Below, one piece after another: positions 5,872 to 17,057 of a stretch of 17,057 nucleotides of DNA. A program made the position numbers and the translations under genes. The notes beneath the pieces are model-generated. The model was not told the DNA's origin. It saw nothing but the letters and a program-made list of their open reading frames with translations, and made no database searches. Each line of letters begins with the position of its first letter. Positions within the stretch are counted from its first letter, which is position 1. The stretch lies in the NCBI GenBank assembly GCA_016288255.1, contig JAEEYS010000127.1, positions 1 to 17,057 on the forward strand. Direction: 5' to 3'. Origin of the DNA: Bacillota bacterium (GTDB lineage: Bacteria > Bacillota > Tb-RUG-66).

Positions 5872-5930
5872 ATAAGGGATAGATGTGTTTAAAAAAGAGA
5901 ATAAAAAGAAGCGTTTTTATAAAAAACATC

Positions 5931-5970
5931 AAAAAAGAAAAGACGGAATCCGTTCCGTCTTTTCTTTTTT
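5931..5970. terminator. Bidirectional terminator between gatB and the convergent SLH gene
   Basis: A perfect 18-bp inverted repeat: the left arm 5931-5948 (AAAAAAGAAAAGACGGAA), loop TCCG at 5949-5952, and the right arm 5953-5970. The inner 12 bp are the stable stem and the outer A6/T6 arms supply a U-run in either direction, so it should end gatB transcription on the + strand and the 5987-8257 gene on the - strand. Confidence 0.9.
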
Positions 5971-5986
5971 GATAGGTGTGAAAATA

Positions 5987-8257
5987 CTATTTTCCGTTTT
6001 GGATAAAATGATAGATCATAGAGAGCGCTTCCGCGCGGGTAACGGACTTTTGCGGATAGAAGTTTTTCTTTTCATCTCCCCGGATAATGTCTAGTCCCTG
6101 CATGATGGCCGCGTAGCCCAACATTTCTTTGGAAATGGCGCTGCCGTCCGTAAAGGCAGTGGTATAAATGTCCGGTATCTTAGCGGCTTTTTCCAGTCCC
6201 AAAGCCCGGATCATGAACTTCGCCGCGTCGATTCTGGTAACGGCGGATTCCGGATCGATTTCTTCTTTTAAGATATAACCCAGATCCAAAAGCTGCCTAT
6301 AAAGAGCATTTTGGTTGGAGGGAACAGACAGTCCGTCCATTTGGTTCACGACCGCATAGCCTGTATTGGATTTTAAAAGAAGATAAAGGAATTCTTTTTG
6401 ACGAACTTCTGTATTTGGCTTTAAGGCATCTTCCTCAAACCCGATGCCGATAGACAACAGGGTATCGGCGATCTCTTTGGCCCAGTGGTTTTCCATATCG
6501 GTATAAGCGGTTTTTCTGCTGAGAGAGACTTCTTCTCCGGACCAGAAACGGATCAGTTTTCCGGTTCTTGCTTTTACGATAAAAGAGGTCACGGGATTCA
6601 GACAATAAACCAATCTGGGTGTGACGACGGATAAAGGACCGGGAGTTTCAATGTATTCTCCGTATTCTTCTTCGATGGTAGCTTTACTTCCCGCTGTGTC
6701 ATAAAAATAAGTATAGTAGGATTCATATTGCAGTCCCGCTTGATTTCCTTCCAAAATGGTGCTCATGGCATCGTTTTGGCTGACGATCCCCGCTTTGGAC
6801 TCAAAGTCAACGTTGTCAAACCAATTGGAATAGTAAGAGGTGATCTTTGCGGTTTGACTGCTTACGGTGACCCTTAAGTTGTTGTCGGGCATGGGGATAT
6901 TGTCATAAAGCCGTTCGTAAGTATAAGAATAAGAAATAGGATAGCTGTCTTCTTTGCTGTAGTAATAATCCGGAGCAGAAGTTTTATAAGAAACTTCTTT
7001 TAATTTAGCCGGCGTATTTTCTTTTAAAAAGTTTTCGGCAGTCACTTTGTTTTGTTCTTCCGTAAATTTGGCTTTTGGGATCTTTCCTAAAGAATCATAA
7101 TCCTTTTCGGACTGATAATAGGACAGGATCTCGCCGGTTTTGGCATCTACGGTGACATAAACATAAGGATTTTCAAAGCTTTCTTTTTCGACCTTGCCGA
7201 TATACTCGATATGCCAAGCATAGTAATTGTTATAACCCGTATTTTTGTGCAAATAGGAATGAGAGATTTTATAGTTTTGATCCAACGCCAAATAAGGATT
7301 TCTTTTTAACAGCGCGTCGATGTCCGCCACTTTGAACAGTTTTTCCGATTCCTGGATCTCTTTTAGCTCTTCCGCGCTGAAAGTGATCTGTTTGCTGCCT
7401 TCGGCGTTTTGATTGGTGGAGGAAGCGTCTTCCGTTTCTGCCCCGCCGCCGTTAGAATACTTTTCCCAATCGGCATTTTTTTCCAAAAGTTTTCCGCTTA
7501 TGGGATCGACCGCGATGTAAGTGTCTTCCAAAACATAGGCCAAATAAGCTTTGGCCGGTTTGTTCCGGTCTTCGTCCCCGTAAAACGGTTCATAGTTTAC
7601 AAGATACTGCAGTTTTGGCGTGAAATTTTCTCTGATGATGGATAACGCCTTTTCTTTGCTTATGATATTTTCCGGCTTTTTAAATTCCATGTCATAATCA
7701 AACCGGATCTGGAAGTTTTTGATCTCCAGCGTAGTATAATCAACGCTGATCTCGATCCCGTTGTCATAATAAGGAATGTCATTTTCTATTCTGTAAAAAG
7801 AAAAATCATATTTTTGTCCATAAGTATAATAATTGGTGTTTTCGCGTAAAACCATTTTATCGGAAGCATCCGGCGCTATTTTACGAATAAATTCTTTGGC
7901 TTTATTGAGCGCTTCTTCTCTGGTATGCTTCGGAATGGCAATGGAGTTGGTTTCATTGTTTTTAACGGAAAAGTATCCTAAGATGTGTTTCTTTTGGTCA
8001 ATGGATACGGTGATCCGATCGTTTCCTTCATTTCGCCAATACAATGTATATTCTCTGCCGTTTTGTGTTTCACAGCTGTCATAATCGAATTTGGTGTAAG
8101 TTTCCGGTATATCAAGCTGACTTTTTACCGCAACGATCATTTCTTCCAATTCTTTTGGGTCTTCCTTGGTATTTTCTGCCTCCCCAAAAACGTTTAGAAC
8201 AAAACAGAAGCATAAGGATAGGCACAAAATACAAGAAATGAGCTTTTTTCCTTTCAT
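5987..8257 (-). CDS. Secreted YcdB/YcdC (PepSY-like) repeat protein with C-terminal SLH domains
   Basis: A 756-residue exported protein. An N-terminal signal peptide (MKGKKLISCILCLSLCF followed by a hydrophobic run to about residue 25) has no clear lipobox. Residues of about 35-570 contain repeated alpha/beta units ending in motifs such as YIAVDPISGKLLEKN, YVTVDAKTGEILSYYQ and VTVSSQTAKITSYYSNW, the pattern of YcdB/YcdC and PepSY domains. From residue 584 (AYTDMENHWAKEIADTLLSIG) to the end are about three SLH units, the last with the conserved VTRAEAL; the middle one is degenerate. SLH domains anchor proteins to pyruvylated secondary wall polymers, so the protein is probably displayed on the cell wall. 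YcdB/YcdC domains have no firmly established activity; protease inhibition is proposed for PepSY relatives. The start has AGGAGG at 8265-8270. It is convergent with gatB and divergent from the small membrane genes. Confidence 0.85.
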   Translation of the reverse strand: MKGKKLISCILCLSLCFCFVLNVFGEAENTKEDPKELEEMIVAVKSQLDIPETYTKFDYDSCETQNGREYTLYWRNEGNDRITVSIDQKKHILGYFSVKNNETNSIAIPKHTREEALNKAKEFIRKIAPDASDKMVLRENTNYYTYGQKYDFSFYRIENDIPYYDNGIEISVDYTTLEIKNFQIRFDYDMEFKKPENIISKEKALSIIRENFTPKLQYLVNYEPFYGDEDRNKPAKAYLAYVLEDTYIAVDPISGKLLEKNADWEKYSNGGGAETEDASSTNQNAEGSKQITFSAEELKEIQESEKLFKVADIDALLKRNPYLALDQNYKISHSYLHKNTGYNNYYAWHIEYIGKVEKESFENPYVYVTVDAKTGEILSYYQSEKDYDSLGKIPKAKFTEEQNKVTAENFLKENTPAKLKEVSYKTSAPDYYYSKEDSYPISYSYTYERLYDNIPMPDNNLRVTVSSQTAKITSYYSNWFDNVDFESKAGIVSQNDAMSTILEGNQAGLQYESYYTYFYDTAGSKATIEEEYGEYIETPGPLSVVTPRLVYCLNPVTSFIVKARTGKLIRFWSGEEVSLSRKTAYTDMENHWAKEIADTLLSIGIGFEEDALKPNTEVRQKEFLYLLLKSNTGYAVVNQMDGLSVPSNQNALYRQLLDLGYILKEEIDPESAVTRIDAAKFMIRALGLEKAAKIPDIYTTAFTDGSAISKEMLGYAAIMQGLDIIRGDEKKNFYPQKSVTRAEALSMIYHFIQNGK

Positions 8258-8344
8258 AAGCTATCCTCCTTTTTTATAAAAAGCATATTCTCTTCTATAG
8301 ACGACCTTGTAACAGAAAAGTTCCTCAAAAAAATCCAAAAGAGC

Positions 8345-8466
8345 AAAAGTCCGTTTTATTGGACATATTTGGGCGTAATATTATTTTTAAAGAAGAAAGT
8401 ATGAAGAAAATGAGTTCAAAATCATATAGGATCGAATGATGGGAAGAGGAGGAATCAAAACATGTT
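8345..8466 (+). repeat. Duplicated leader, copy 1 (upstream of the 65-residue membrane protein)
   Basis: A 122-bp sequence that recurs at 8668-8789, exactly 323 bases on, with four substitutions and no gap. It covers everything from about 117 bases before the start codon to the first two codons (ATG TTA). It includes a short inverted repeat GTCC/GGAC, a possible sigma-A promoter (TTGGAC 8359-8364, 17-base spacer, TATTTT 8382-8387; the -10 is weak), and the ribosome binding site AGGAGG at 8447-8452. A 12-codon micro-ORF (8401-8439, MKKMSSKSYRIE) lies inside. Confidence 0.9.
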
Positions 8467-8659
8467 AAATATACCATTGATTATCTTAGGGTTGATAGGT
8501 CTTTGGGCTTGTGTTCAAGAGAAAAACGGAAAAGCGGATAGAAAGAAAGAAGAAAAAGTTTTTTATACAGCTTATACCATTATGATGGCGATCTTGTCAA
8601 TTATCTGTTTCCCTATAACGATCTTGTTGGGCACGACAGGTTTTAAATTTAAAAAATAA
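8462..8659 (+). CDS. Small two-segment membrane protein, unknown function
   Basis: A 65-residue protein I do not recognise. The first hydrophobic segment covers about residues 2-18 (LNIPLIILGLIGLWACV). A highly charged linker follows (QEKNGKADRKKEEK), then a second hydrophobic segment of about 36-58 (AYTIMMAILSIICFPITILL), and a basic tail KFKK. Cytoplasmic linker and tail fit the positive-inside rule only for part of the molecule, so topology is open. The ATG has AGGAGG nine bases upstream in the duplicated leader, so translation is well supported. No terminator separates it from the second leader copy. The C-terminal pattern Pro-Ile-x-Ile-Leu with a basic end resembles the 8785-9033 protein, hinting at remote paralogy. 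Confidence 0.75.
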   Translation: MLNIPLIILGLIGLWACVQEKNGKADRKKEEKVFYTAYTIMMAILSIICFPITILLGTTGFKFKK

Positions 8660-8667
8660 AAAGGGAT

Positions 8668-8789
8668 AAAAGTCCGTTTTATTGGACATATTTGGGTGTA
8701 ATATTATTTTTAAAGAAGAAAGTATAAAGAAAATGAGTTCAAAATCATATAGGATCGAACGATGGGAAGAGGAGGAATAAAAACATGTT
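8668..8789 (+). repeat. Duplicated leader, copy 2 (upstream of the 82-residue membrane protein)
   Basis: Second copy of the 122-bp leader, 118 of 122 positions identical to 8345-8466. Substitutions are C to T within the candidate promoter spacer, G to A and T to C in the leader middle, and C to A just before the start. The T to C change removes the stop of the internal micro-ORF, which here runs 8733-8780 (MSSKSYRIERWEEEE) through the ribosome binding site (AGGAGG, 8770-8775) and stops four bases before the ATG at 8785. Identity ends abruptly after ATG-TT. Confidence 0.9.
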
Positions 8790-9033
8790 GACATTTTTGT
8801 GGTGGGTCGCGGTATTATTTGCGGCGTCCCCAATGATAGCGGTTTTTCTGATTGCCCACGCACTGAAAAAGGCCCAGGAGCAAAAAGGCAAGGAAGCACT
8901 CACAAAAGCCGAACAAAATACTATTGCGATAGGTGTAGGCGCAACGGTTTACAACGTTTTCAAACTAATATTGACTATCGTGGCGGCTCCAATTATGATA
9001 ATCCTTTACGCGGCCGGGATCATAAAAAAATAA
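8785..9033 (+). CDS. Small two-segment membrane protein, unknown function
   Basis: An 82-residue protein of unrecognised family. Hydrophobic segment 1 is about residues 3-26 (TFLWWVAVLFAASPMIAVFL), a charged and Lys/Gln-rich linker follows (HALKKAQEQKGKEALTKAEQ), then a longer hydrophobic region of about 46-79 (TIAIGVGATVYNVF, LILTIVAAPIMIILY) and a basic KK end. It has the same architecture as the protein at 8462-8659, but almost no residue identity beyond the first two residues. The ATG has a strong AGGAGG site supplied by the duplicated leader, and a strong terminator follows 17 bases after the stop. Small membrane stress proteins, holin-like or toxin-like peptides and regulators all share this shape; nothing in the sequence decides between them. 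Confidence 0.75.
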   Translation: MLTFLWWVAVLFAASPMIAVFLIAHALKKAQEQKGKEALTKAEQNTIAIGVGATVYNVFKLILTIVAAPIMIILYAAGIIKK

Positions 9034-9050
9034 ATACACTCCTATTTATA

Positions 9051-9080
9051 GGCGGGATCATTCCCGCCTTATTTTTTGTT
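9051..9080 (+). terminator. Terminator after the small membrane protein genes
   Basis: GGCGGGA at 9051-9057, loop TCAT, TCCCGCC at 9062-9068, then TTATTTTTTG. A GC-rich seven-bp stem with a T-rich tail is a classic intrinsic terminator. Confidence 0.92.
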
Positions 9081-15424: not shown

Positions 15425-15500
<76 letters not shown>

Positions 15501-15509
15501 ATTTTATAT

Positions 15510-15586
15510 GGCGGCGTGGCTCAGTTGGCTAGAGCATACGGTTCATACCCGTAGGGTCACTGGTTCGAATCCAGTCGCCGCTACCA
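15510..15586 (+). tRNA. Elongator tRNA-Met (CAT)
   Basis: A 77-base cloverleaf with encoded CCA; acceptor GGCGGCG/CGCCGCT (G1:T72 wobble), anticodon stem-loop TACGG TTCATAC CCGTA. The stem sequence matches the Firmicutes elongator Met tRNA. tRNA-Ile2, which also has a CAT anticodon gene sequence, is less likely because of the acceptor and anticodon stem. Confidence 0.92.
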
Positions 15587-15608
15587 TCTTTTTTATAAAA
15601 CTACATAG

Positions 15609-15683
15609 GGCCCCATGGTCAAGCGGTTAAGACATCGGCCTTTCACGCCGGTAACTCGGGTTCGATTCCCGATGGGGTCACCA
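15609..15683 (+). tRNA. tRNA-Glu (TTC)
   Basis: A 75-base cloverleaf with encoded CCA; acceptor GGCCCCA/TGGGGTC, anticodon loop CTTTCAC with TTC anticodon, T loop TTCGATT. A clear Glu tRNA; in this organism its synthetase may also charge tRNA-Gln for GatCAB. Confidence 0.96.
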
Positions 15684-15687
15684 AAGT

Positions 15688-15763
15688 GGGGGCATAGCTC
15701 AGCTGGGAGAGCATCTGCCTTACAAGCAGGGGGTCACAGGTTCGAGCCCTGTTGCCCCCACCA
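15688..15763 (+). tRNA. tRNA-Val (TAC)
   Basis: A 76-base cloverleaf with encoded CCA; acceptor GGGGGCA/TGCCCCC, anticodon stem-loop CTGCC TTACAAG CAGG with TAC anticodon, T loop TTCGAGC. Last gene of the operon, followed by a terminator. Confidence 0.96.
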
Positions 15764-15998: not shown

Positions 15999-17057
15999 TT
16001 GAAAAAACGAGTGTTGAGTATTTTACTTTGTGTGATCATGGTTGTGGGACTGATACCTTCCATGGCACTGGCTGCGAATCTACCGTTTACCGATGTGGCA
16101 ACAAGCGCATGGTATTACGATGATATCAAAACAGCTTATGAAACCAACCTGATCAATGGGAAAACAACGACAACCTATGAACCGGATGCGAATTTGACCT
16201 ATGCGGAAGCGGTCAAATTGGCAGCTTGTATGAATCAAAGATACGTAGACGGTTCCGTCACATTAAAAAACGGAACGCCATGGTATCAAACTTATGTGGA
16301 TTATTGCAAAAAGAAAGGGATCATCAGCAAGGACTATAGCTGGAACGCACCCGCCACCAGAGCCGGCTACATGGAAATTTTTGCCAACGCTCTGCCAAGC
16401 TATGCCATGAGTGAGATCAACACCATCGCGAACGGGTCTATTCCGGATGTTCCGATGAGCCACCCGCAGGCTAGTTCTATTTATAAGTTATATCGGGTAG
16501 GGATCCTGCAGGGGGTCGACTCCAAACATAACTGCAGTCCCGCATCCAATATCAAACGGAGTGAAGTGGCAGCGATCTTGACCCGTATGATGAATTCCAG
16601 CAAACGGATCAGTTTCAGCATGGGCGAAGCGCCTACGACCGAACTGAAAGTCAGTATTCCTGCGACAGCTTCCGGCAAAGCAAATGAAATCATGAACATC
16701 AAGGCAACCGTAACAGGAGGAAAGGCTCCTTATACATATGTATGGTATTATGCCAAATCGACTGACAGCAGCTGGTCAAAGTCCAGCGACAATGACAATA
16801 CCTACAATCCTTCCTTTACCGCAGGCGCATGGGAATGCTGGTGCAGAGTCACCGACGCGAATGGAAAGACTGCGGAATCCGGTGTTTGCAAGATTACCGT
16901 GGCTGCGGCAGAAACAGCGGTATCTGTGAGCATTCCTTCGACAGCTTCCGGCAAAATGGGTGAGGCGCTCAGCATCAAAGCAACCCACACAGGAGGAAAC
17001 GCTCCTTATACGCATGTATGGTATGATGCCAAATCGACTGACAGCAGCTGGCAAAAA
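15999..17057 (+). CDS. S-layer type protein: three SLH domains then 92-residue Ig-like repeats (5' part)
   Basis: The gene begins at a TTG (15999) with AGGAGG (15985-15990) eight bases upstream and stays open to the window edge, so at least 353 residues are seen and the C-terminus is missing. The signal peptide MKKRVLSILLCVIMVVGLIP continues to a likely cleavage after ALA (about residue 26). SLH units follow: about 29-78 (PFTDVATSAWYYDDIKTAYE), 92-136 (WYQTYVDYCKKKGII) and 150-200 (IPDVPMSHPQ; KRSEVAAILTRMM). From residue 216 a 92-residue repeat starts (KVSIPATASGK, YTYVWYYAKSTDSSW) and begins again at 308, with obviously similar DNA. The repeat contains a Cys-rich segment (WECWCRVTDANGK) resembling PKD/Ig-like domains. 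SLH domains bind wall polymers, so it should be a surface-anchored or S-layer protein. Confidence 0.88.
   Translation, partial: MKKRVLSILLCVIMVVGLIPSMALAANLPFTDVATSAWYYDDIKTAYETNLINGKTTTTYEPDANLTYAEAVKLAACMNQRYVDGSVTLKNGTPWYQTYVDYCKKKGIISKDYSWNAPATRAGYMEIFANALPSYAMSEINTIANGSIPDVPMSHPQASSIYKLYRVGILQGVDSKHNCSPASNIKRSEVAAILTRMMNSSKRISFSMGEAPTTELKVSIPATASGKANEIMNIKATVTGGKAPYTYVWYYAKSTDSSWSKSSDNDNTYNPSFTAGAWECWCRVTDANGKTAESGVCKITVAAAETAVSVSIPSTASGKMGEALSIKATHTGGNAPYTHVWYDAKSTDSSWQK
16644..17057 (+). repeat. Tandem 276-bp coding repeat in the S-layer gene
   Basis: The unit at 16644-16919 restarts at 16920 and is cut by the window end at 17057. Period 276 bases (92 codons); for example, GACAGCTTCCGGCAAA occurs at 16664 and 16940, and TGCCAAATCGACTGACAGCA recurs near both unit middles. 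High DNA identity suggests recent duplication or gene conversion. Confidence 0.85.

Follow-up and report, generated by a model that had tools for sequence, protein, structure and literature searches.

In the window (the whole 17,057-nt stretch of DNA that was analysed) two small genes, ORF1 and ORF2, follow one another, each preceded by very nearly the same leader, and the question that they raise is how leaders so alike came to stand before proteins so different. The geometry reported in the preliminary description was reproduced by recount. The two leader copies are 323 bases apart and align without a gap over 122 bases, with four mismatches (copy 1/copy 2: 8374 C/T, 8403 G/A, 8437 T/C and 8456 C/A), a divergence of 3.3%. 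The repeat grows to 139 bases at 93% identity once an A-rich flank is added, and its chance origin is excluded by the E values of the self-search, 1.9e-54 for the 139-base query and 1.3e-53 for the 122-base query. The identity does have the sharp edge near the coding start that had been claimed for it: the repeat stops inside codon 2 of both genes.

Table. Position, strand and main properties of the features at the ORF1–ORF2 locus (window coordinates)
Feature	Position	Strand	Remarks
Leader copy 1, including the ribosome-binding site and the first ORF1 bases	8345..8466	+	97% identity with copy 2
Sigma-70-like promoter candidate in leader 1, TGGACA-16-TATTTT	8360..8387	+	9/12 consensus match
ORF1, 65 aa, two hydrophobic segments, KK end	8462..8659	+	one public relative, P0003 (72% over 88% of the query)
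Weak terminator-like stem within ORF1, at its 3′ end	8623..8640	+	consensus match only
Leader copy 2, including the ribosome-binding site and the first ORF2 bases	8668..8789	+	4 mismatches to copy 1, no gap
Same promoter candidate in leader 2, hexamers unchanged	8683..8710	+	weak, consensus match 9/12
Block homologous to the phage contigs: ribosome-binding site, ORF2, terminator	8765..9077	+	87% DNA identity; L024 match from 8747
ORF2, 82 aa, two-helix model	8785..9033	+	91-93% identity to the L023/L024 proteins and P0001
Intrinsic terminator after ORF2, present in the phage copies too	9050..9069	+	paired stem changes (by eye)

The promoter candidate has an equal position in both leaders, though sigma-70-like sites across the region are hardly above shuffles in number (5 against a shuffle mean of 3.7, sd 2.0). 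Its hexamers being identical in both copies would suit an explanation by which the near-identity of the leaders is held by constraint, on a structured RNA or a regulatory site, with no recent copying. However, the identity is spread evenly over the whole leader, and a small reading frame within it is altered by the differences (by eye). The leader as a structured RNA was rejected, its folds being no better than those of shuffles (z +0.65 for the first of the pair and +0.59 for the second) and no Rfam family being matched at either copy. Constraint is thus quite an improbable reason for the likeness.

An alternative offered at the outset was that the leader is a cassette which drives interchangeable small membrane proteins. 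In its own genome there are only two copies, the other 16 matches listed being of 27 bases or fewer. No full-length leader was found in 60 other genomes of the same phylum, in 397 other genomes (the best two candidate places per genome were scored, and the set overlaps the sample of 60), in the two genomes holding the phage contigs described below, or among GenBank phage records or PLSDB plasmid records; nor was any exact leader 25-mer found in IMG/VR. The host class is represented in the genome set by this genome alone, and leader copies in close kin could be missed. With the leader confined to this locus, the idea of a general cassette does not hold within the range of these searches. Short matches to the leader (15–38 bases, in its own and other genomes), several of them in its A-rich parts, were set aside as probable chance. 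One such, of 38 bases at 87% (E 3e-5), lies at G308:C1:1383613-1383650 and matches the AT-rich middle of the leader; it too is taken as chance. As the sole member of its class in the set searched, the host genome may represent a deep lineage of the phylum.

The common architecture described for the two proteins, two hydrophobic segments, a charged linker and a lysine end (KK in both), is there, but to call them almost unrelated was too strong. BLASTP aligns them at 35% over 48 residues (E 3e-6 in a single comparison), and their local score of 59 was reached by none of 2000 composition shuffles and by one of 2000 local-block shuffles. To judge by these alignments, they are probably old paralogs in one family of two-helix small membrane proteins. 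The paralogy is not certain, because P0001 and P0003, the respective public relatives of ORF2 and ORF1, give no BLASTP local alignment with each other at E <= 100, and because 11 of 2000 block shuffles, though none of 2000 composition shuffles, attained the score of P0003 with ORF2. From a set of 5.8 billion proteins only P0001 (91%), P0003 (72%) and P0002, which is ORF1 itself, were retrieved. Neither protein obtained a convincing score in Pfam, NCBIfam, PHROGs or PADLOC (the best PHROG, E 0.004, is of unknown function), and as they match no named exclusion or defence family in these collections convincingly they are not filed in one. The structure model of ORF2 consists of two helices, residues 2-34 and 41-76 (mean pLDDT 74.6, pTM 0.49); a fold search of viral proteins gave no match at E <= 0.001, the best E value in a sequence search of the PDB was 0.2, and two patterns for each protein found neither in IMG/VR. 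Distant protein matches in five other genomes of 398 (its own included) were judged to be chance: three cover about one helix, and those at L038 and L041 span most of the profile but lie inside frames of 378 and 536 aa. Among the relatives of genome G062, none of 193 others has the protein at E <= 1e-4.

The connection that gives the locus its interest, and that the preliminary description could not see, is to phages. When the species-genome collection was scanned for two peptide patterns from the N-terminus of ORF2, two loci came up, L023 and L024, both in yak-gut assemblies. L023 (contig JAGCNM010000043.1, with the record title Candidatus Saccharibacteria) codes, by profile matches, for both terminase subunits (large and small), portal, major head protein and primase; more to the left it has a 1229-aa ORF that is tape-measure-like by eye. 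Judged by these genes, it is a tailed phage. L024 (JAGCBH010000009.1, 3.4 kb) has in common with it a region of 1488 bases, reaching from ORF2 to the terminase small subunit inclusive, at 95% identity. ORF2 is accordingly encoded within a phage genome, to judge by L023. By eye, it is in both contigs the last of a run of small plus-strand genes and has 3′ of it the terminase small-subunit gene in the opposite direction (the mechanical ORF list also has plus-strand frames of 75-110 aa, some of which overlap ORF2 or run antisense to the terminase small subunit; these were not counted as genes).

The gene preceding ORF2 differs between the two phage contigs (79 aa in one and 122 aa in the other), and just before the differing genes is a 54-base stretch with 91% identity (L023:9711-9764, L024:1463-1516) which by eye is promoter-like, TTGACT-17-TATTAT or TATCAT. 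Because so similar a stretch precedes two different genes, it seems that the phages too exchange genes while retaining the leader, or control sequence, that stands before them upstream of ORF2. This stretch and the terminator after ORF2 make up a candidate for independent control of the phage gene, as read from sequence only. ORF2 is in none of six related IMG/VR stretches, all of them partial contigs or cut, and three with equal match values that are perhaps near-copies; the L023 protein at 7693-8379, presumably gene-88-like, and an 88-aa L024 protein had no IMG/VR match. Binning of phage contigs is unreliable. Nothing links the genomes that hold these contigs to the present bacterium, since in neither was there a SpoVT match at E <= 1e-10.

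The match of host to phage DNA has well-marked limits. Its identity is 87% over 313 columns with L023 and over 331 columns with L024. At the left edge, the L023 match starts at the ribosome-binding site, while the L024 match reaches 18 bases further out at a weaker identity. At the right edge, the match ends just past the terminator, the identity in 20-base bins falling from 0.85 to 0.55-0.60 and then to 0.35-0.44 (from about 9105). The predicted folds of all three terminators are much more stable than those of shuffles (z -4.1 to -4.3), and by eye the changes in their stems (GGCGGG/CCCGCC, GGCGGA/TCCGCC and GGTGGA/TCCACC) are paired among the three sequences. No strong terminator is listed between ORF1 and ORF2, so ORF1 transcripts may read into ORF2.

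Apart from its last bases, the full leader is absent from the phage copies. For leader 1 the match to L024 covers 43 bases (77%), and that to L023 the ribosome-binding site only. Leader 2 and L024 both have TAAAAACATG, at the place where leader 1 has TCAAAACATG, and this is compatible with a recombination junction at that place. The 26 bases 5′ of the ribosome-binding site agree with L024 at 15/26 in leader 1 and 14/26 in leader 2, scores that fractions of 0.002 and 0.004 of the 26-base positions along L024 attain; the same bases agree with L023 at 6/26 only. By eye, an in-frame reading of leader 2 reaches a TAA that aligns with the stop of the gene preceding ORF2 in L024. The alignment of the TAA and the match to L024 would suit a reading of the leader as an old coding remnant.

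The relative ages of leader and gene can be compared. Between the host ORF2 and its two phage counterparts dS is 0.36 and 0.40 and dN 0.05 and 0.06 (dN/dS about 0.15), the differences being mostly silent; between the phage copies dS is 0.28 and dN 0.03. Because dN is far below dS, there has been purifying selection on the ORF2 protein somewhere along the branches joining the host and phage copies, though three sequences cannot show constraint on the host branch alone. Leader and protein have had different histories, as had been proposed, with 3.3% between the leaders against a dS of 0.36-0.40 between host and phage ORF2, and with ORF1 and ORF2 differing at most aligned residues. If silent and leader sites change alike, the copying or homogenisation of the leader is therefore younger than the split of host from phage ORF2.

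The surroundings of the two genes are ordinary chromosomal genes, with no prophage genes around the host copy: the neighbours in the window include a SpoVT and an SLH/YcdB-domain protein by Pfam, and LigA, GatCAB, SpoVB, MazG and HU as recognised by eye. The assembly is fragmented (1.37 Mb in 203 contigs, 75% complete), and a phage stretch might have been joined artificially into a chromosomal contig. However, the host ORF2 is 13% off both phage contigs over the matched block and stands between chromosomal genes behind a leader that the phage contigs lack; an artefact is very improbable. Elsewhere in the window, a perfect 21-base inverted repeat with 4 bases between its arms (5928-5973) separates convergent gatB-like and SLH-domain genes and is perhaps a bidirectional terminator, four consecutive tRNA genes (Rfam) lie at 15425-15760, and near the contig end direct repeats with 276-base spacing (16650-17056; 84 bases at 88% and 30 bases at 90%) may belong to a repetitive protein.

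DNA searches that used L024 and the greater part of L023's contig, and a search with the terminase protein, found no relative of the phage in the host genome. For L024, ORF2 was the only match at E <= 0.01. Most of L023's contig gave, besides ORF2, 15 short matches, the best at E 6e-5 and about 50 bases long, mostly AT-rich where printed, and 11 short L023-matching loci had no CRISPR-like repeats and were mostly AT-rich or of low complexity. The L023 terminase protein had no match, an empty answer that there proves little. One short resemblance is between G000:C163:6735-6782 (L046), in the host genome, and L023:7468-7516, the stretch which precedes the phage's plus-strand genes (82%, E 6e-5); both are promoter-like by eye.

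The simplest account, and the best reading of these observations, is that a gene-plus-terminator block recombined between phage and chromosome and that the host gene stands behind a copied resident leader. In its full form this reading is tentative, if still the likeliest of those considered: ORF2 and its terminator would be a gene shared with tailed phages, most likely an accessory gene (a moron), which entered the host chromosome as a block by recombination, its junction lying near the ribosome-binding site. The host ORF2 would thereby have been placed behind a recent copy of the leader of resident ORF1, promoter and ribosome-binding site included, and with like leaders the two genes may be expressed alike. 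The ORF2 protein would lie in the membrane, most likely as a barrier of the superinfection-exclusion type against related phages, and the host copy would be a captured resistance gene.

A serious, though slightly less probable, alternative starts from the host. It supposes a tandem-duplicated host gene family, whose leaders were homogenised by conversion or recent copying, and from such a host a phage took ORF2 with its terminator. ORF1 and ORF2 are indeed probable paralogs in tandem, and conversion would leave a sharp edge at the coding start. The base composition also favours it: GC3 of the host ORF2, 0.50, fits seven of eight host genes (0.47-0.58; HU is 0.24), whereas the phage copies of ORF2, at 0.44-0.45, are unlike their four neighbouring plus-strand genes (0.24-0.33; four other phage genes have 0.39-0.45). 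Because of that difference ORF2 looks foreign in the phage operon, and transfer from phage to host is weakened as a direction, since GC3 speaks against phage origin. However, ORF2 is at the same place in both phage contigs, and the dS between them nearly equals that between host and phage, so ORF2 is not new to phages. The shared place in the two phages, and the lack of other phage genes around the host copy, lead us to lean slightly, on an unrooted comparison, to transfer from phage to host.

Holins are small, with two hydrophobic helices and a charged end. ORF2 has all three features, and might on that ground be a lysis-related phage protein (holin or antiholin) whose host copy is a remnant or is put to private use. 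This is unlikely, as no holin PHROG is listed at E <= 0.1 and as the ORFs that flank ORF2 in the two phage contigs, profile-scanned in part, include none that by eye looks like an endolysin; a constrained lone holin in a chromosome would, moreover, presumably be odd. Returning to the block recombined behind a copied resident leader, a bolder extension of it, and a doubtful one, is that the host locus is a growing array of exclusion genes acquired from invading phages, each behind a copy of the resident leader, a chromosomal stock of the phages' own exclusion proteins kept without a prophage.

The family of ORF1 and ORF2 probably serves as a membrane-bound accessory protein. For ORF2, superinfection exclusion is the best guess by analogy, because phages are known to carry, as one class of accessory gene, small exclusion proteins of the membrane, and because SieA types diverge strongly while their helix predictions are similar. 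Of the functions suggested earlier, a defence-related one comes closest, since phages have ORF2 too; nothing found points to a pheromone or bacteriocin family. What the locus offers is a gene that phages have too, cut down to its ribosome-binding site, coding region and terminator, in a chromosome behind a host-only leader and beside a probable diverged relative. Should ORF2 exclude phages, it would be a clear example of a phage's exclusion gene put to use by a host, and in any event the two genes form a small and unnamed family of proteins for which the assay to run is obvious.

Among known systems, the superinfection-exclusion morons are the nearest in kind. T4 Imm is about 83 aa long with two membrane segments. 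It resembles ORF2 in size and in its two hydrophobic segments, though T4 is lytic and infects a distant host, and the likeness is one of general description. Two accounts give T4 Imm an exclusion role (PMC11436027, PMC7677548), and a third has morons regulated independently of the rest of the prophage (PMC7380047). In one study, SieA sequence types show strong divergence with similar helix predictions, P22 SieA and HS1 SieA act alike at 24% identity, and HK97 gp15 and Tuc2009 Sie2009 are named as blocking DNA injection (PMC10883804). P22 SieA, HK97 gp15 and Tuc2009 Sie2009 are morons and, like the putative moron ORF2, small membrane-protein genes in the accessory part of a tailed phage, and the SieA types, like the family of ORF1 and ORF2, have diverged yet share a helix layout. 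However, SieA has about 162 aa and three predicted helices, where the 82-aa ORF2 has a two-helix model, and in contrast to these morons ORF2 has no convincing profile match to a named family and no prophage genes surrounding its host copy. The other comparison is with tandem paralogs, which may be homogenised in part by gene conversion. Such partly converted pairs have, as ORF1 and ORF2 do, a near-identical stretch with a sharp edge in copies that are otherwise old. Here, however, one of the two copies is shared with phages, from its ribosome-binding site to its terminator.
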